Shown here piece by piece: positions 99 through 20,195 of a stretch of 21,874 nucleotides of DNA (positions are counted from its first letter, which is position 1; each line of letters opens with the position of its first letter). Below the pieces are notes generated by a model, which was not told the DNA's origin, made no database searches, and worked only from the letters and a program-made list of their open reading frames with translations. The DNA is taken from positions 1-21,874 of the IMG/VR virus record IMGVR_UViG_3300007533_000025; one strand, 5' to 3'. The translations under genes and the position numbers were made by a program. This DNA comes from a virus.

Positions 99-680
99 CT
101 ACTTCTCGTTGTCGTCCTTCTCTTTGGCTGGCTGGACATACTCCTCGTTGAGTGCCAGCCAATCGACGTACTCGTTGAACTGATATGTCAAGCGTTGCAG
201 CTTCAGGTCCTTCTCTGGCAGACTATCGTACGAGATGGTGATGTGAGGGATGAACTGATCGTAGGACTGCTGAAGGTCGGGCCATTCCCGCACGATGGCA
301 TCATGGCGTGCCGAGACCGCCTCATCCTCAAATTTGGCCACAAGGACATTGTTGCCATCCGACCCCTTCCAGACTTCCAGTTCAAAACCGTTGATCATGT
401 ATGGGTCTTCCAGTACGCCCTCGGACACGAAACCCTTCATGAAATCCGTGGTATAGATCAGGGTACAGTGGAGTTCTTCCTTGGGGACCGGATTCTCAAT
501 GTCATAGTCCTCGCAGAAGTTCATGATCTTGTCAGATGAGGAGCGATCCACGGACAAGGCAATGAAAGTGCCCAAGTCCTGATACAACTCAATCGCACTG
601 TCTTGATTCTTCGCGCTGACATTCCCGCGATCCGGTCCTTCCTTCGGGGTGTCTTCTTGTAATATGTCGCTGATCTTCAT
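99..680 (-). CDS. 2H phosphoesterase, Acb1-like (anti-CBASS cyclic nucleotide phosphodiesterase)
   Basis: This 193-residue protein has the two H-x-T motifs of the 2H phosphoesterase fold: HCT at 71-73 (in ELHCTLIY) and HIT at 146-148 (in FIPHITISY). The spacing of about 75 residues and the hydrophobic strands around each motif fit a single-domain 2H enzyme. In phages with T4-like genes the best-known member is Acb1 (T4 gp57B, about 150 residues), which hydrolyses the cyclic nucleotide messengers of CBASS defence. RNA 2',3'-cyclic phosphodiesterase is the main alternative. The fold appears to begin near residue 35. The preceding segment starts MKISDILQE and is then polar and Gly/Pro-rich, so it looks like an added leader rather than part of the enzyme. 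The ATG lies exactly six bases after a late promoter element and has no ribosome site. The fold is secure; the Acb1 substrate is an inference. Confidence 0.75.
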   Translation of the reverse strand: MKISDILQEDTPKEGPDRGNVSAKNQDSAIELYQDLGTFIALSVDRSSSDKIMNFCEDYDIENPVPKEELHCTLIYTTDFMKGFVSEGVLEDPYMINGFELEVWKGSDGNNVLVAKFEDEAVSARHDAIVREWPDLQQSYDQFIPHITISYDSLPEKDLKLQRLTYQFNEYVDWLALNEEYVQPAKEKDDNEK

Positions 681-685
681 GTTCT

Positions 686-693
686 TATTTAGC
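686..693 (-). promoter_or_regulatory. T4-type late promoter element (GCTAAATA) for the 2H gene
   Basis: On the minus strand the element reads GCTAAATA, followed by AGAAC and the ATG at 680. In T4 the TATAAATA element spans -13 to -6, which puts the predicted transcript start on the A of this ATG. It differs from the plus-strand elements by C for A at the second position, as does the other minus-strand copy at 3619-3626. Confidence 0.55.
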
Positions 694-5945: not shown

Positions 5946-7015
5946 GATTGTTCTTCAGCGACCTCGCGATATAGATCAATCAACAAGTCTCGGTCAATGC
6001 CCTCGATTTCATCGCTGGCTTGAAGGTACTTGACGACCGCCTCGTCTATGTTTTCAACGGATTCGATCTCTTCACTGTTCACGGACTCGACCAACTCCTT
6101 GTATCGGCTCGGGGTATAGTTGATCTTGGTGGTGCGGAACCCGTCATTTTCCAGTTTCTCCTTGATCTTGTCCATTGTCTCGTCATCGATGTCCTCATCG
6201 ATGTTGACCCGCACGGAAGTGTTCTCGGGATCGCCCTTGAGACTGTCGCCCTTGAGGAATTCCTCATGGCCAATGGACCTGACCGTGGCGATATGGAGAT
6301 CGCGGAACTCCAACTCTCCCGTATCGAGGTCGAGGATGGCGAAGCCGCGCTGATCGTCGTTGGCATCGTTGAAGTTGAAGGGGATCGGGGAACCGACGTA
6401 GGTCACGTTGTCCTTTTGTTGGCGCATGTGATAATGCCCGGTCAGGACATGTTCTGCGGACTTGAACACGCGATGGGAGCGGCCGTGTTCCATGACATAG
6501 TGGTCATTCATTCGAAACTTGTTGAATTCGAAGTGACCGAAGACGAACCGTGGTTTTTTTCGATTGAAAAGTTCCACGACTTGGTCCCATTCTTCTGACC
6601 CCGTGACCCATGGGACGAGCATCAGATCGCCCTCGATCCGGGGTCCTTGATCATGGACCGTGAGATACTGGTCCAGCACCGAGGCCGATGTACAGTCCCG
6701 ACTGTGGCGGTAGTAGAGGTCATGGTTGCCAACGATCAGATCGGGCTGATCCCCCACCAGACCCCGGAAGTTGACTAGCTTGCGGGCACCCAAGACGCCG
6801 GTCTCCAAGGTTCGCACGTCAATCTTGTCGCGGTGATGGAAGTAATCCCCGGCGATCACCAGACGGTCAATCCCCTCCTCCTTTCGAACGAAATCAATCC
6901 GGTCCAACACGGCAAGCAGGTTGTCGCCGGTTCGTTCGGAGTTGTTGTTCTCGCCAAAGTGGAGATCGGCGACGATGATGACCTTGTTATTCTTCTTCGT
7001 CTTTGTGTGATTCAT
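5942..7015 (-). CDS. 47: Recombination nuclease subunit, T4 gp47-like (Mre11/SbcD family)
   Basis: This is the Mre11-type metallophosphoesterase and nuclease partner of the gp46-like ATPase. Numbered from the chosen start, the phosphoesterase motifs are VADLHFG (D17, H19), AGDYFHHRD (D57), GNHD (N97, H98, D99), GHFEF (H161) and TGHYH (H194, H196), which together bind two metal ions. The start is taken as the ATG at 7015 (357 residues): GGAA lies seven bases upstream, and the overlap with the sigma gene is then about 29 bases. An upstream ATG at 7063 would add 16 basic residues but overlap by 77 bases. The order sigma–47–46 matches T4. Confidence 0.94.
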   Translation of the reverse strand: MNHTKTKKNNKVIIVADLHFGENNNSERTGDNLLAVLDRIDFVRKEEGIDRLVIAGDYFHHRDKIDVRTLETGVLGARKLVNFRGLVGDQPDLIVGNHDLYYRHSRDCTSASVLDQYLTVHDQGPRIEGDLMLVPWVTGSEEWDQVVELFNRKKPRFVFGHFEFNKFRMNDHYVMEHGRSHRVFKSAEHVLTGHYHMRQQKDNVTYVGSPIPFNFNDANDDQRGFAILDLDTGELEFRDLHIATVRSIGHEEFLKGDSLKGDPENTSVRVNIDEDIDDETMDKIKEKLENDGFRTTKINYTPSRYKELVESVNSEEIESVENIDEAVVKYLQASDEIEGIDRDLLIDLYREVAEEQS

Positions 7016-7427
7016 TCGATTTCCGTGCGTCCTCTTCTTCTTTGTAACGCTCTTCGTATCCATAACTTGGATTCATATTGTTGTTTACAAGTATAGCGTC
7101 CTTGACGTTCTTCTGAGCGTATTCTTTCTTGATGGTCTGGAGGAAGGCATGGTAAACGACCGATGAGAAGAAGGCAAACGGGTTCTTCGATTTATCTGCC
7201 TTGAACTTCATGAAGGCATTGCAACACGCCATTATCCCCGCCGCGATCAGGTCTTCCTTGAATGGGTATTGATTGAAATACCTGTGAGTTGCCCGGCGTT
7301 CCGCCAGCAACATGAACATCTTCCCGAGTTTGTCACTCATTCGACCCCGTTCTTGGCAGGCGATCAACTCTTCGTACAAATCTTTGTTGTTGAGGTAGTT
7401 CTTGTTGTTCTTGTTGGTGTCTTCCAC
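6987..7427 (-). CDS. 55: Late-gene sigma factor, T4 gp55-like
   Basis: This protein is predicted to bind host RNA polymerase and direct it to the TAAATA-type late elements seen across the window. The order YLNNKDLYEEL, KMFMLLAERRATHRYF, KEDLIAAGIMACCNAFMKF, NPFAFFSSVVYHAFLQTIKKE follows T4 gp55 ([41 protein letters not shown]) closely and corresponds to sigma region 2. I chose a GTG start at 7427 (146 residues) because AAAGGAG lies nine bases upstream and the product then begins just before the conserved block. A TTG at 7469 has no ribosome site. T4 gp55 has 185 residues and ends in a hydrophobic-acidic sliding-clamp motif. Here the tail is only charged (ESHKDEEE). The 3' end overlaps the gp47-like gene. 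Confidence 0.9.
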   Translation of the reverse strand: MEDTNKNNKNYLNNKDLYEELIACQERGRMSDKLGKMFMLLAERRATHRYFNQYPFKEDLIAAGIMACCNAFMKFKADKSKNPFAFFSSVVYHAFLQTIKKEYAQKNVKDAILVNNNMNPSYGYEERYKEEEDARKSNESHKDEEE

Positions 7428-7504
7428 GAAGTAGCTCTCCTTTTTTGTCTTCGATTGAAATTGAGACAACAGAGATTCGGTTTAGTTTGGAAACTCTGTC
7501 TATG

Positions 7505-7512
7505 CATAAATA
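7505..7512 (+). promoter_or_regulatory. T4-type late promoter (CATAAATA), sheath unit
   Basis: CTATGCATAAATA ends at 7512. The predicted start near 7518 gives a 19-base leader carrying AGGAAG before the ATG at 7537. The same 13 bases occur at the promoter ending at 12457. Confidence 0.8.
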
Positions 7513-7536: not shown

Positions 7537-7728
7537 ATGAAGACCTGTTACGTCAACAAAGCCAACGGCATGCGTCGAATCGTATTCGTTGATGGCTCGA
7601 CACAGTTCCTAGTGAAGGGAGAGTCCTTTGTCTCCAGTCGGAACGTGAGAAAGACGGATGAAGGCATTGATTCTGTTTCGCTTACCAAGACGACCAGAAC
7701 AAGAAAGTCAAAACAGGAGACTGAATAA
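7537..7728 (+). CDS. Small conserved-looking protein ahead of the sheath gene
   Basis: This is a 63-residue basic protein (from MKTCYVNKANGMRR to KSKQETE) with a central stretch, IVFVDGSTQFLVKGESF, that resembles a small beta-structured domain. I do not recognise a family. The ATG at 7537 is preferred over a TTG at 7528 because AGGAAG (7522-7527) is nine bases before the ATG and touches the TTG. Its TAA overlaps the sheath ATG (TAATG), and both lie in one transcript between a late promoter and a terminator. It may be a structural or assembly partner of the sheath, but this rests on position only. Confidence 0.75.
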   Translation: MKTCYVNKANGMRRIVFVDGSTQFLVKGESFVSSRNVRKTDEGIDSVSLTKTTRTRKSKQETE

Positions 7729-9294: not shown

Positions 9295-9302
9295 TATAAA
9301 TA
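9295..9302 (+). promoter_or_regulatory. T4-type late promoter (TATAAATA), tube unit
   Basis: This is an exact match to the T4 consensus TATAAATA, followed by CC. The predicted start near 9308 gives a 25-base leader with AAGGAG before the ATG at 9333. Confidence 0.87.
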
Positions 9303-9332: not shown

Positions 9333-9848
9333 ATGGCGAAGAACATTCAAGACCTAAGAAGCATGACCGCACCGCCGCAAAGGGCATACGAATTTGAGGT
9401 GGAGATCGTAGGTCTGTCTACTGGAAGTGAGGAAGGCTTGACTACGCGCGCACAGAGCGTATCCATCCCGGCAACATCGAACGAGGCCATCGAGATCAAC
9501 TACAAGTCCCGCAAGACCTATTTCAGCGGGCGTGATTCCTCGTCCAACACGGTGTCAATCTCGTTCCTCGACGATGAGAATTTCACTGCATACAACTACT
9601 TCCAGAAGTGGAATGATGACCTGATCAACAACCCGGTAACCGGCGGTGGGACAACCCGTGCGCTATATACGGCGACCGTGTTGATCAAGACCATGGCCGG
9701 TGACGACGAAACGGTAACTTCCACGACTCGACTACTCAACGCATTCCCGACCGAAATCGGAGAAATGTCGATGAGCTATGATACGAACCAGCAGGTCACG
9801 TTTGATGTGACCATTCAGTACGACCAGAAACTGTTCGAGCCGGTATAA
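9333..9848 (+). CDS. 19: Tail tube protein, T4 gp19-like
   Basis: This protein forms the inner tube through which DNA passes. Its 171 residues compare with 163 in T4 gp19. The fold's signatures are visible: AYEFEVEIVGL near residue 18, a strand-rich middle with SRKTYFSGRDSSSNTVSISFLDDE, NYFQKWNDDLINN, and the C-terminal FPTEIGEMSMSYDTNQQVTFDVTIQYD. The ATG at 9333 is preferred to a GTG at 9327, as AAGGAG (9318-9323) lies nine bases from the ATG and only three from the GTG. The gene has its own late promoter and terminator, as expected for one of the most abundant tail proteins. Confidence 0.93.
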   Translation: MAKNIQDLRSMTAPPQRAYEFEVEIVGLSTGSEEGLTTRAQSVSIPATSNEAIEINYKSRKTYFSGRDSSSNTVSISFLDDENFTAYNYFQKWNDDLINNPVTGGGTTRALYTATVLIKTMAGDDETVTSTTRLLNAFPTEIGEMSMSYDTNQQVTFDVTIQYDQKLFEPV

Positions 9849-9894: not shown

Positions 9895-9920
9895 CCCCCG
9901 GACTCCCGCCGGGGGTTTTT
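9895..9920 (+). terminator. Intrinsic terminator after the tube gene
   Basis: CCCCCGG (9895-9901), a 7-base loop, CCGGGGG (9909-9915), then TTTTT. A late promoter for the next unit follows within about ten bases. Confidence 0.9.
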
Positions 9921-9928
9921 GATTGAGC

Positions 9929-9936
9929 GATAAATA
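9929..9936 (+). promoter_or_regulatory. T4-type late promoter (GATAAATA), predicted leaderless start
   Basis: GATAAATA, then CGAAC, then ATG at 9942. The last base of the element is six before the A of the ATG, so T4 geometry puts the transcript start on the start codon. Confidence 0.78.
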
Positions 9937-9941
9937 CGAAC

Positions 9942-10670
9942 ATGGGATTTCAACACAAGATTCGTGACCTGAAGACGCAGATCGCCGAGGCGCGCACCGA
10001 TATCAATCAATTCGGCGCACGCGCCCTGCGTCTGGCGGGTCAAGGCGAGGTCTATCCTGTCCAGACAGGAGAGCCACAGAAGAGCTACATGTGGGAGGTC
10101 GGTTTCGTCGGAGACGCGGACGTGTTCAAGAACGCGCGTCTTTATGCGAAATCCGCGACCATTCCTCCAAGCAGCGTGGAGATCATCGAAGAACAGTTCC
10201 TTGGCAGGAAGATGTACTTCGCCGGCAAGGACAACTCCACGCATTCCGCGACCATTACCTTTTGGGACAACGAGGATATGGAGGTTTATCGGTTTCTTCA
10301 GGAATGGATCAACGTCATTGTAGAGCCGCAATTCGGACTCGGGGTCAGCAAACAACGATTCACGCGGACCATGAAGCTGTTGCTCAAGGACACGTCCGAC
10401 CTGTTCACGACGGCGGACTTCTATCTCAAGGATTGCTTCCCGAGCGAGATCAACGAGGTCTCCCTGAGCTACGATGTATCCAATGCCATCGAGATCACGG
10501 CCACCTTCTACTATGACACCAAGTATGCTGGCAAGCCGCCTCAACCTCCAAGTGGACAGTCGGGGGATTCACTGAAGTCCTATCTCAATCTGGACAAGTA
10601 CGTGAGTGCGTTCACCGGGGACTTCAATGAGTTTGATCTGTCGGTGCCTAACATTCGAGGGTTCTTCTAA
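9942..10670 (+). CDS. 54: Baseplate–tail tube initiator, T4 gp54/gp48-like
   Basis: This 242-residue protein has a tail-tube-like fold. SYMWEVGF near 48, the strand-rich section GRKMYFAGKDNSTHSATITFWDNED, RFLQEWINVIVEP and FPSEINEVSLSYDVSNAIEITATFYYD match the tube protein position for position. An added N-terminal helix and a C-terminal extension ending VPNIRGFF are also present. T4 gp48 and gp54 are tube-like proteins that cap the baseplate and start tube polymerisation, and that role is inferred here; which of the two it corresponds to is uncertain. The ATG has no ribosome site and sits exactly where the transcript from the element at 9929 should begin. Its stop overlaps the next start (TAATG). 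Confidence 0.8.
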   Translation: MGFQHKIRDLKTQIAEARTDINQFGARALRLAGQGEVYPVQTGEPQKSYMWEVGFVGDADVFKNARLYAKSATIPPSSVEIIEEQFLGRKMYFAGKDNSTHSATITFWDNEDMEVYRFLQEWINVIVEPQFGLGVSKQRFTRTMKLLLKDTSDLFTTADFYLKDCFPSEINEVSLSYDVSNAIEITATFYYDTKYAGKPPQPPSGQSGDSLKSYLNLDKYVSAFTGDFNEFDLSVPNIRGFF

Positions 10671-12449: not shown

Positions 12450-12457
12450 CATAAATA
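12450..12457 (+). promoter_or_regulatory. T4-type late promoter (CATAAATA)
   Basis: CTATGCATAAATA matches the sheath-unit promoter over 13 bases. The predicted start near 12463 gives a 25-base leader before the ATG at 12488, with GGGG and AGG sequences suitable for ribosome binding. Confidence 0.8.
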
Positions 12458-12487
12458 CTTCATAGACCAATACATATGGGGTATAGG

Positions 12488-17013: not shown

Positions 17014-18254
17014 TGGCCACGAACATACTGTTACGAGAACAATGGGGAGACAACTTCTACGCCAGCCTTGATACCTATAGTTCCGAGGAGATCAAGACGG
17101 CATGGCTGACCCTTGACAATCTGGCCTTGATCGAGAGTCTGTCGGCGGCAAGTTCCACATTGGTTGCGCGTGTATTCGACTCGGCCGGTATCCTGAACGC
17201 GGGCGGGGTGTATTTCGATCCAAGCAAGCCGTTTCATCTGAGTTTGGGGCAATCGTCCAGTGTAAACACACGATATGGTTTCTCTCTGTCCACCATGAAG
17301 ACGATGGAGATGACCCCGGGGTATTCCGGGAACTCCTATGTCGAGATGAACTTCCTCAATCAGTACTGGAGCGCCCTGTTGCATGAACGCAAGTCGCGTT
17401 CGTGGAAGGAGGTTCGCTATTCCGAGGTTGTCAACGAGATCGCCGAAGAGATTGGCTTCGAGGACATCCAGATCGAACAGACCAAGGGACGGTTCGATGT
17501 GATCCAGCCGTATTGGAGCAACTATCAACTGCTCCAGTGGATGGCCATGCGGTCCGTCAATGCCTCTGGCATACCGGGCTATGAACTCGGCGTTCGTGCG
17601 GACGGCACGTTTTTCTTCAAGACCTTCAACCGGCTCTTTGAACAAAAGCCGAAGAACCAGATCATGATCGCCGCGCGCAATGAGGATATGACCCCGGACA
17701 ACAAGTTCGACCTTGGATTTCATTTCAAGATCGAGCAGAACTATGCCTACATGGTTGCCCGGGGTGCTGGCGGGGTAACCGGCCAGTATTTTGATTGGGA
17801 CACCAAGACCTTTCACCGCGACGACAAGAAGGTATCCGAATCCCCACAGTCACAGTTGTCCGACTGGTACTATCTGGCACCGTCTCACGAGACTTCTCCA
17901 TTCAAGCTTGATGGGGGCCGGGATATGGAGACAGACGCTCAGGCGGCTCACAGGGCGCTACAGGCGGCCTCCTCGATCCAGTCCATCACCTTGTCCGTTG
18001 CTGGTAACACGGACTACAAGATCGGAGACCTTGTCAATCTCGTCATTTTGCCAAGCGAGGCATTCACCGAGAAGATCGCTCGCATCCACTCGGGTTATTA
18101 CATGATCTCGCAGACCTCGCATGAAATCCATGCCCGCAAGAACCAGTTCGTGACCGAATTGCGACTGGTTCGTCAGGGGCCGAATGTGAGTACACTTGAC
18201 GGCATGGAACTGACTAAATCGGTCACAGGCAAGAAGCTGACGCCGATCAAATAA
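17013..18254 (+). CDS. 27: Baseplate hub protein, T4 gp27-like
   Basis: This 413-residue protein is the likely hub that holds the spike at the end of the tube (T4 gp27 has 391 residues; P2 gpD and Mu gp44 share the fold). Supporting features are the central segment QPYWSNYQLLQWMAMRSVNA (165-184), which corresponds to the hub-family helix after the second domain, followed by ADGTFFFKTFNRL, and a C-terminal strand domain with GDLVNLVILPSEA and GYYMISQTSHEI. The identification rests on this layout and on its place just before the spike gene rather than on a catalytic motif. It begins at an ATG overlapping the upstream TAA, and its own TAA lies within the next late promoter. Confidence 0.78.
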   Translation: MATNILLREQWGDNFYASLDTYSSEEIKTAWLTLDNLALIESLSAASSTLVARVFDSAGILNAGGVYFDPSKPFHLSLGQSSSVNTRYGFSLSTMKTMEMTPGYSGNSYVEMNFLNQYWSALLHERKSRSWKEVRYSEVVNEIAEEIGFEDIQIEQTKGRFDVIQPYWSNYQLLQWMAMRSVNASGIPGYELGVRADGTFFFKTFNRLFEQKPKNQIMIAARNEDMTPDNKFDLGFHFKIEQNYAYMVARGAGGVTGQYFDWDTKTFHRDDKKVSESPQSQLSDWYYLAPSHETSPFKLDGGRDMETDAQAAHRALQAASSIQSITLSVAGNTDYKIGDLVNLVILPSEAFTEKIARIHSGYYMISQTSHEIHARKNQFVTELRLVRQGPNVSTLDGMELTKSVTGKKLTPIK

Positions 18255-18257
18255 ATA
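18250..18257 (+). promoter_or_regulatory. T4-type late promoter (AATAAATA), overlapping a stop codon
   Basis: AATAAATA then CCCTTATC and ATG at 18266. The gp27-like TAA (18252-18254) is inside the element. The predicted start at 18263 leaves a 3-base leader with no ribosome site. Confidence 0.75.
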
Positions 18258-18265
18258 CCCTTATC

Positions 18266-19132
18266 ATGAGACTAAGCCAAATAGACTTGACCACAAAAGA
18301 CCAGCAACGTCAGATCGATGAACTGTTCGAGATCAAGGACCTGCCGATCCAACAGGCCATCATCACGGAAGATGCCAAGGAGTATGCGGGAGAACTGGAG
18401 TCGGCGCAGTCCGAGTTCGAGGGCATGGACGAAACGGATGATCTGGAAGCTGCCTATGACGAACTCTCCACCCTGACCGCCGCCATGGAAAGCGGTAATT
18501 TCGGGCTGTTGATTGGCAAGCGCGGCGGTCGGCTGGATCACAATGACATACTGGAAATCCGCCGGGAGATCGCGGACATCTTTCGTAATAATCGGCTGTT
18601 CTCCGGTGAGAATATCTATCGTGGCAAGGACGGGTGGGAACGCCTGCGGCTCGTACCACAGGCCATCGAATCGTCACTGAACGAGTGGGGCTCTTACGCG
18701 ATCTCTGCGGCACTGGCGTGGACCAGCATTGGTTTCTTTGCCAGCGCAGGCTTGGCCACCCTTCCCATTATTGGCCTGATCGGTGGTGCCATCTTGTCCG
18801 TGTTGTTCCTTGCCGCCGGCATCCATAACCATTTCATTCACAAGTCGATCAAGACTGCCGCCCGGGTACTGAACATCCTCGATGCTTATGAGGACATGAA
18901 CAGCAACCGCAAGGTTGATGACCGCAGTACCATTCACAAGTTCTTCGATTGGCTTATGCGCAAGAGTCCGTCCGACATTCGAGCGGACGCACAGGAAAAA
19001 GTGCAGGACTCCGCCAAGAAGGCCGCCAAGCGCTTCGAACGTCTAACCAAGGGGTTGCCGGACTACATCTACTATTACGATCAAAGCGGTGACAAGAAAC
19101 AGTATCCCACAATCGAATTGTTCACGGGATAA
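18266..19132 (+). CDS. Unknown membrane-associated protein in the baseplate cluster
   Basis: This 288-residue protein has two adjacent hydrophobic segments, about 144-161 (YAISAALAWTSIGFFASA) and 163-187 (including LPIIGLIGGAILSVLFLAA), which would form a membrane hairpin. Before it lies a charged helical region with an acidic stretch (EGMDETDDLEAAYDEL), and after it a basic helical region (DAQEKVQDSAKKAAKRFERL). I do not recognise a family. Placed between hub and spike genes, it may be a virion protein released into the host membrane during infection, or an assembly factor bound to the membrane; holin-type lysis is less likely given its size and context. It has a late element whose predicted transcript starts three bases before its ATG, and no ribosome site. 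Confidence 0.75.
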   Translation: MRLSQIDLTTKDQQRQIDELFEIKDLPIQQAIITEDAKEYAGELESAQSEFEGMDETDDLEAAYDELSTLTAAMESGNFGLLIGKRGGRLDHNDILEIRREIADIFRNNRLFSGENIYRGKDGWERLRLVPQAIESSLNEWGSYAISAALAWTSIGFFASAGLATLPIIGLIGGAILSVLFLAAGIHNHFIHKSIKTAARVLNILDAYEDMNSNRKVDDRSTIHKFFDWLMRKSPSDIRADAQEKVQDSAKKAAKRFERLTKGLPDYIYYYDQSGDKKQYPTIELFTG

Positions 19133-19134
19133 CC

Positions 19135-19788
19135 ATGCTGCACTCGAACCTCGAACGAGACAAGTCACAGGACTACTTCTATGGGTTCTATCGCGGGGTA
19201 GTTGTTGACAACCTTGACCCGCTGAAGGCCGGGCGCGTGCGCGTGCGCGTGTTTCCCCTGTATGACAATGTTCCCGATGATGAGCTTCCTTGGGCAATCC
19301 TTTCCGATCCGTTCATGGGCGGTCTGGCCAATGCCGGCGGCGCTTTTATCCCCAACATCGATGCACATGTGTTCGTGTTCTTCGAGGCCGGCGATCACAT
19401 GCATCCGGTCTACTTCGGTGGGGCTCCGGCCATGGTGGACAATACCCCGGACCTTCCGGAGGAATCCCGCACCAATGGCCAGTATCCACACAATCATGTG
19501 TTTCGCACCACCAACGGGATCGTGATCGAGATCGACAACACCAAGGACAGCGAGCGCGTGACAATCAAGGAGCCGAGCGGCACCACCATGCAACTCGACA
19601 AGAACGGATACACGATCACCGACCCACATGATACAACCATCAATACCACCGGAGATGTCAATATAACGGCGCAGGGTAACGCCACTGTCAACGCGCAAGG
19701 CGATGCCACCATTCAGGCCAGTGGTAACGTGAATGTTACGGCCAGCGGCAATATCGTGGCGTCCGGTACACTGATTCAATTGAACTGA
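19135..19788 (+). CDS. 5: Baseplate spike protein, gp5/gpV-like, without lysozyme domain
   Basis: This 217-residue spike has an N-terminal OB-fold (residues about 15-110: GFYRGVVVDNLDPLKAGRVR, LPWAILSDPF, HVFVFFEAGDHMHPVYFGG). A linker follows, and then a beta-helix of short repeats with GDVNITAQGNATVNAQGDAT and SGNVNVTASGN. This is the P2 gpV and T4 gp5 plan. T4 gp5 (575 residues) also carries a lysozyme domain between the two; nothing of that kind is present here, so cell-wall digestion must be done by another protein if at all. The stop is just before the next late element. A GCGCGT repeat near 19231 encodes RVRVRV. Confidence 0.9.
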   Translation: MLHSNLERDKSQDYFYGFYRGVVVDNLDPLKAGRVRVRVFPLYDNVPDDELPWAILSDPFMGGLANAGGAFIPNIDAHVFVFFEAGDHMHPVYFGGAPAMVDNTPDLPEESRTNGQYPHNHVFRTTNGIVIEIDNTKDSERVTIKEPSGTTMQLDKNGYTITDPHDTTINTTGDVNITAQGNATVNAQGDATIQASGNVNVTASGNIVASGTLIQLN

Positions 19789-19794
19789 TAAATA
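19787..19794 (+). promoter_or_regulatory. T4-type late promoter (GATAAATA), predicted leaderless start
   Basis: GATAAATA, then CCCAT, then ATG at 19800. The spacing equals that at 9929 and at 686: the T4 rule puts the transcript start on the A of the ATG. The spike stop codon (19786-19788) overlaps it. Confidence 0.78.
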
Positions 19795-19799
19795 CCCAT

Positions 19800-20195
19800 A
19801 TGGCCTCCAAGACCAAAACCTATTCAGACGTAGACATGCGTCTGTCGATTGATGTTGACGGCTCACCCAAGATCAATGAGGGGGCAGAAGCGATCATGCA
19901 ATCAATCAAGATGATCCTGTCTACCGCTCCCGGAGAGCGGGTGAAGCTTCCAGAATTTGGATCGTCGTTGCGGGAATACCTGTTTGAGCCGCTGAATCAG
20001 GACAATGCCAACGAGATCGCGCATGAGATCGAGACCTCATTGGCCACATTTGAACCGAGGATCGAGGTAATCAATGTGGGGGTCAAGGTGGACGACATCA
20101 ATGAACTCTATGACATCACCGTCAATTTTCGGTATGCCGGTACCGGCGAGAGCGATCAATTTGCCGGCCGCGTGCGTGCCTTCAATACGGGATAA
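19800..20195 (+). CDS. 25: Baseplate wedge protein, T4 gp25-like
   Basis: The 131-residue product (T4 gp25 has 132) is a wedge component that contacts the sheath and is conserved across contractile systems, including type VI secretion (TssE). The conserved core is present: KTYSDVDMRLSIDVDG, PGERVKLPEFGSSLREYLFEP, and FEPRIEVINVGV with the hallmark EPR triad. Alignment with T4 at TYSDVD/LYSDID supports the ATG at 19800 as the real start, although no ribosome site precedes it. The late element ends six bases before the start codon. The gene is followed after ten bases by the gp6-like gene, an order also known in other contractile tails. Confidence 0.93.
   Translation: MASKTKTYSDVDMRLSIDVDGSPKINEGAEAIMQSIKMILSTAPGERVKLPEFGSSLREYLFEPLNQDNANEIAHEIETSLATFEPRIEVINVGVKVDDINELYDITVNFRYAGTGESDQFAGRVRAFNTG

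Follow-up and report, generated by a model that had tools for sequence, protein, structure and literature searches.

Sequence Evidence for a Probable Class of Leaderless Late Messages in T4-Type Phages

Introduction

Late transcription in phage T4 is a textbook system, and T4 late messages are regarded as leadered and driven by a Shine-Dalgarno (SD) sequence. The locus described here raises the question of whether some T4-type late messages are made without any leader. It lies in a 21,874-base stretch of DNA (hereafter the window), an uncultured virus record with a GC content of 53%, in which the late promoter element of a gp54-like tail gene is found five bases before the start codon:

9895..9919, plus strand: intrinsic terminator, seven G-C pairs followed by TTTTT, between the tube gene and the gp54-like promoter
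9929..9936, plus strand: T4-type late element GATAAATA of the gp54-like gene, -13 to -6, assigned from the sequence; its spacing is kept in five further lineages
9937..9941, plus strand: five-base spacer CGAAC, -5 to -1, giving a predicted transcript start at 9942
9942..10670, plus strand: gp54-like gene (tail-tube-family paralogue, baseplate tube initiator), predicted leaderless; phrog_45, 7e-25; no SD

A sequence-only reading of the window had placed the octamer at -13 to -6, and the T4 late-transcription review does number it from -13 (PMC2988020). Since the octamer begins at -13 and five bases follow, +1 would fall on the A of the ATG. We refer to the arrangement with exactly five intervening bases as N5.

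Late Promoter Elements of the Window

Profile matches identified genes for RNase H, a gp46/gp47-like pair and a gp55-type late sigma factor, together with a tail region encoding sheath, tube, gp54-like, gp48-like, hub, gp5-like and gp25-like proteins. The closest cultured genome found to have this gene order is that of Alishewanella phage Slickus01 (35% sheath identity). Rfam and tRNA scans of the window were both empty; the gp45 profile, PF02916, had no match anywhere, controls included, and the window is a fragment. The window carries the sigma factor gene, as does each of the five other contigs checked:

6987..7469, minus strand: gp55-type late sigma factor; phrog_234, 3e-27 (1e-29 at the genome level)

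Its product is the factor expected to read the late elements, an assignment that we infer from the T4 system and from the presence of the gp55 gene. Besides the gp54-like promoter, the elements and closely associated features are as follows:

686..693, minus strand: late element variant GCTAAATA (Aeh1-type) of the Acb1 gene; five bases, then ATG at 680
7505..7512, plus strand: leadered-class late element CATAAATA; ATG at 7537, 24 bases away
9295..9302, plus strand: leadered-class late element TATAAATA of the tail tube gene; ATG at 9333, AAGGAG present
12450..12457, plus strand: leadered-class late element CATAAATA; ATG at 12476 or 12488, homologues also leadered (22-31 bases)
18250..18257, plus strand: late element AATAAATA; eight bases, then ATG at 18266; predicted three-base leader without SD
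18266..19132, plus strand: tail-region gene, predicted near-leaderless; no PHROG or Pfam match
19787..19794, plus strand: late element GATAAATA of the gp25-like gene; five bases, then ATG at 19800; overlaps the TGA stop of the upstream gene, which ends at 19788

A base-by-base check found the N5 spacing at all three sites where it had been claimed (gp54-like, gp25-like and the minus-strand gene), and the eight-base fourth case as well. The minus-strand site does have the five-base spacing, but its element is GCTAAATA rather than NATAAATA, matching the (a/g)C variant of Aeromonas phage Aeh1 at -13/-12; the review gives this late variant as (a/g)CTAAATA (PMC2988020). The Aeh1-type element is an exception in the window, where most elements are NATAAATA. 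A second CTAAATA variant, CCTAAATA, occurs at 3626-3619 on the minus strand, with no ATG within the next 42 bases.

The exact heptamer ATAAATA is present six times in the window, always on the plus strand and each time before a tail-region gene. Two of the six form ATAAATA-N5-ATG (9930-9944 and 19788-19802), against 0.03 expected, and none of 100 dinucleotide shuffles yielded at least two. With the base at -12 left free (TAAATA-N5-ATG), three occurrences compare with 0.05 expected from dinucleotide shuffles. This enrichment, and the same spacing in relatives (below), bear out the earlier judgement that chance is unlikely. SD sequences had been described as lacking at the closely spaced starts and present at all three leadered elements. 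The former statement stands for the three starts counted (9942, 19800 and 18266). The latter stands for two of three by scan: 9295 has a clear AAGGAG and 7505 an AGGA about 11 bases from the ATG, while 12450 has no canonical site.

Spacing in Related Phages

Searching with the gp54-like or the gp25-like protein alone yielded no relatives; alignments were needed. Relatives were found via sheath and gp54 alignments, and the whole records of uncultured relatives, along with cultured phages, were then read. With genes called as simple open frames, we counted, at each distance downstream of ATAAATA, the ATG codons that open a frame of 40 codons or more.

The uncultured relatives nearest the window (sheath identity 42-48%) contain N5 starts. 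When related phages were examined for a fixed NATAAATA-N5-ATG spacing, as the sequence-only reading had called for, a sharp peak at exactly 5 emerged in six gp55-encoding contigs or genomes: the uncultured G003, G032 and G042, Pelagibacter phage HTVC008M, Stenotrophomonas phage RAS14 and Xanthomonas phage XacN1. G042 (230 kb) has 32 starts at distance 5, where no other distance has more than 6, plus five further N5 sites with GTG in place of ATG; its close kin G043 (68 kb) has 7 N5 starts. The others number 8 in G032 (75 kb), 5 in G003 (21 kb), 9 in HTVC008M, 7 in RAS14 and 5 in XacN1, where one lies in the terminal repeat and is counted twice. In 20 permutations, shuffled heptamers gave means of 0.05-1.15 at distance 5 across these genomes. 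Poisson P values for distance 5 against the mean of other distances range from 9e-33 (G042) to 0.004 (XacN1 and the window) and, like all p values given here, are overstated because related sequences are not independent. GenBank start codons coincide with the N5 ATGs for the seven HTVC008M N5 genes in the annotated stretch. Examples of N5 genes in the cultured phages are those at 19456, 31132 and 49760 in HTVC008M, at 200386 and 281509 in RAS14, and at 125682-126974 (minus strand) in XacN1.

The remaining elements mostly lie about 18-40 bases from the start, usually with an SD in SD-using genomes. Spacing is two-humped in RAS14 and XacN1, with one group at 5 (to 8) and another at about 20-34. 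The same ATAAATA count found no N5 start in T4, 121Q, Slickus01 or Syn9, and one each in S-PM2 and TM30; late elements of Slickus01 are all leadered. The jumbo phage PA5oct has eight N5 sites. N5 is not a general T4-type trait. Variable spacing with ribosome sites, which the sequence-only reading had held to count against it, is seen in T4, 121Q, Slickus01 and the majority of the cyanophages tested; the nearest relatives do not show it. Judging from these genomes, the N5 trait is spread over some T4-type lineages and is specific to certain genes.

Wider occurrence was sampled among IMG/VR loci with TGATAAATA-N5-ATGGC, a sample drawn by pattern that speaks to breadth, not frequency. Among the matches listed, 83 of 118 starts open a frame of at least 60 codons, compared with 68 of 118 for the same pattern at N4 and 64 of 120 at N7. 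One gp25-like family recurs in this set and accounts for about 25 of the 83 long-frame N5 starts. The idea that the N5 class has a promoter sub-sequence of its own was considered and rejected: G at -13, found at 16 of 23 sites in the window clade, is found at only 2 of 32 in G042, so that there is no general N5 promoter sub-class.

The gp54-like Gene and Its Terminator

The gp54-like gene is at N5 in six lineages (the window, G003, G032, L014, L089 and L104); those proteins that were aligned share only about 32-39% identity with that of the window, and near-copies L007, L116 and L117 agree. Shortly upstream of the gp54 element, all six lineages carry a strong hairpin with a T-tract. Given this terminator, read-through from the tube gene should stop before the element, leaving gp54 reliant on its own promoter. 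The adjacent hub gene is leadered, by 18-22 bases, in G003, G032, L014 and L104, and sheath genes have a clear SD in the window, G003, G032, HTVC008M, RAS14 and XacN1. With the gp54-like spacing kept, the hub leadered and the sheath provided with an SD, leaderless or leadered status looks like a property maintained gene by gene.

Features of the N5 Starts

SD presence was assessed by a simple SD score. It is rare at N5 starts (0/2 in the window, 0/5 in G003, 0/8 in G032, 2/9 in HTVC008M, 1/7 in RAS14 and 0/5 in XacN1) and frequent at leadered elements (2/2 in G003, 13/15 in G032, 6/6 in HTVC008M, 18/32 in RAS14 and 20/41 in XacN1). Pooled over the five SD-using genomes, the figures are 3 of 34 against 59 of 96 (p 6e-8). 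G042 and G043 are SD-poor, with sites at 9% and 3% of starts respectively, and are uninformative on this contrast because they hardly use SD sites.

Bacterial transcripts usually start at a pyrimidine-purine dinucleotide. A pyrimidine occupies -1 at 67 of 75 distinct N5 starts, versus 585 of the 1306 remaining ATG starts of these genomes (p 4e-15, kinship ignored). G042 (31/32) and the window clade (20/23) show the preference most strongly; the same comparison shows no visible signal in XacN1. Leadered promoters, both of these phages and of T4, mostly have A or G as the sixth base past the element. With a pyrimidine at -1 and A at +1, the N5 starts look as a transcription start is expected to. 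In some bacteria a pyrimidine directly preceding the start codon is known as a translation-related signal too (PMC3160421), so the -1 signal is supporting, not decisive.

Genes with Closely Spaced Promoters

Two further N5 genes of the window could be assigned to families:

99..680, minus strand: anti-CBASS protein Acb1 (2H phosphoesterase superfamily), predicted leaderless; Pfam PF23474, 6e-21; phrog_755
19800..20195, plus strand: gp25-like baseplate wedge gene, predicted leaderless; PF04965, 3e-20; phrog_261, 6e-29

The distance between element and gp25 start is 5 in the window and HTVC008M, 6 in G032, 8 in G042 and 9 in L089. In the nearest cultured jumbo phages gp25 is leadered or has no element. 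These distances, and the leadered gp25 genes of Slickus01, PA5oct and Phosso, rule out gp25 being universally leaderless.

The minus-strand gene, earlier called simply a 2H gene, is a member of the Acb1 family, and its late expression is predicted from the leaderless Aeh1-type promoter. The Acb1 N-terminus, MKISDILQED, resembles the capsid-targeting sequences of T4 and includes a (L/I)xE site of the gp21 type. N-termini of this kind, seen also among N5 genes of G042, RAS14 and XacN1, occur in 31 of 72 N5 genes (43%), 27 of 99 leadered genes (27%) and 239 of 1819 other frames (13%). They are not specific to leaderless genes, leadered late genes being enriched over other frames too; their enrichment in late-promoter genes hints at packaged, ejected proteins.

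N5 genes include those for the portal protein and a tail-tube-family protein in G042, gp2 (DNA end protector), tail tube cap, tape measure and baseplate initiator in HTVC008M, and endolysin in XacN1. RAS14 and XacN1 have an N5 family in common (phrog_34216), and phrog_15511 is another. No sheath or tube gene is among the identified N5 genes, which fits a low-dose role without proving it. In G042 (L133-L144), an uncultured jumbo T4-type phage, one N5 gene has a weak match to the tubulin PhuZ (phrog_4733, 6e-4).

Homing endonuclease genes with an N5 element of their own were seen in G003 (L087/L088; 12035 and 13780), G032 (L126; 24095) and L091 (105 and 5516). The GIY-YIG/SegE type is Pfam-confirmed at G003 12035 and G032 24095, the others being judged by their similar N-termini. 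Each having its own element, these mobile genes seem to take a leaderless late promoter along with them.

Divergent, back-to-back N5 promoters occur in G042 (131800/131835 and 149815/149826) and G032 (18545/18571). One such pair shares a palindromic ATAAATATATTTAT. In this arrangement two predicted leaderless genes run in opposite directions from starts that are separated by a few bases.

Discussion

The elements, their fixed spacing and conservation, the lack of SD sequences, the terminators and the gp55 gene can be read directly from the DNA. They make it very probable that some T4-type phages have a conserved leaderless class of gp55-driven late messages. The class put forward in the sequence-only reading gains support from the N5 peak, the scarcity of SD sites, the initiator-like base at -1 and the conservation at the gp54-like gene in six lineages. 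The elements would be gp55-dependent T4-type late promoters from which RNA synthesis begins on the A of the start codon. The resulting messages, devoid of 5' leader and SD, would be read by ribosomes binding the 5'-terminal AUG. We infer promoter use by gp55, the exact RNA start and leaderless translation from these features. In the window lineage and several others the late programme would be split by gene. The leaderless set would comprise gp54-like, often gp25, Acb1 and homing endonucleases, and elsewhere portal, tape measure or gp2. Sheath, tube and hub would form the leadered set, served by the same promoter element or by read-through, with leader and SD.

Other explanations must be weighed against this one. 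The promoters might simply be squeezed between stop and start codons, translation proceeding from longer polycistronic messages through coupling or read-through and the short-leader transcript being incidental. The upstream frame's stop does lie in or beside the element at 13 of 32 sites in G042, 5 of 9 in HTVC008M and 1 of 2 in the window, where the gp25 element overlaps the preceding gene's TGA. Compaction alone, however, predicts a range of short distances and not an exact peak at 5; moreover, a strong terminator separates the upstream gene from the gp54 element in all six lineages, and Acb1 has no adjoining upstream gene on its strand in the window. We regard this explanation as unlikely. 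A displaced gp55 start site, leaving a true leader of one to several bases (near-leaderless) or a negative one with the AUG lost, would accommodate the minor classes at 6-8 (6, 4 and 2 starts at 6, 7 and 8 in G042; 3 and 2 at 6 and 7 in XacN1; one at 8 in the window). The peak is nevertheless at 5, and the mostly purine sixth base of leadered promoters fits a start there, making displacement quite unlikely.

It is very unlikely that ATAAATA acts not as a promoter but as a translation signal, an AT-rich site for ribosomal protein S1 as in SD-poor bacteria. G042 and G043 are indeed SD-poor, and hosts of that kind are known to have AT-rich start regions. Yet in these same genomes the heptamer also precedes late genes that have an SD, at a distance of 18-40 bases, permuted AT heptamers give no comparable peak at 5, HTVC008M, RAS14 and XacN1 use SD sites freely, and the heptamer is the known gp55 target (PMC2988020). 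Chance occurrence of an AT-rich motif could be entertained on the three or four cases of the window taken by themselves; with a GC content of 53%, shuffles giving 0.03-0.05 and relatives sharing the spacing, it is already refuted and its probability is negligible.

The leaderless reading can be compared with known systems. T4 late promoters (TATAAATA; gp55, gp33, gp45) are like those of the window in octamer, gp55-type gene, placement before tail genes and purine sixth base. They differ in that no ATG opening a long frame lies at 5 bases, the elements being 12-36 bases from the start, usually with an SD. Middle and late mRNAs of Thermus phage phiYS40 are mostly leaderless, and a shift in host IF2/IF3 levels favours leaderless messages (PMC3594737). 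The window phage would resemble phiYS40 in having later messages without a leader, here predicted from sequence. The Thermus host of phiYS40 belongs to a phylum rich in leaderless genes; here the promoter is the gp55 octamer, and leadered and predicted leaderless late genes share one genome. A -10 box directly ahead of the start codon marks leaderless genes that are common in Deinococcus-Thermus and Actinobacteria and are also present in Xanthomonadales (PMC12340547, PMC3160421); two of the cultured phages with the N5 trait infect Xanthomonadales. Such "TA-led" genes, read as leaderless, resemble the N5 genes in having a -10 element about 10 bases before the start codon (PMC3160421, PMC12340547), but use a host sigma factor and a TANNNT box in place of a phage late sigma factor and octamer. 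A full-text literature search, with subscription papers and preprints outside its scope, found no report of leaderless late mRNAs in T4-type phages. In pelagimyophages, the cyanophage method is reported to have failed to predict late promoters (PMC7029224), likely because the promoter lies against the start codon.

More tentatively, one promoter element might serve two translation classes within the late programme of several T4-type lineages. A leadered, SD-driven class would supply high-copy proteins (sheath, tube), and a leaderless one low-copy parts (gp54-like, gp25, portal, tape measure, gp2), counter-defence (Acb1) and homing endonucleases; the five-base spacing would then be a dosage or timing setting selected for each gene. 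If the leaderless class is real, and conserved in phages that infect Pelagibacter, Xanthomonadales and many uncultured hosts, late translation in such infections would lean on non-canonical initiation, and ATAAATA-N5-ATG would provide a simple rule to locate late promoters and true start codons in metagenomic phages.
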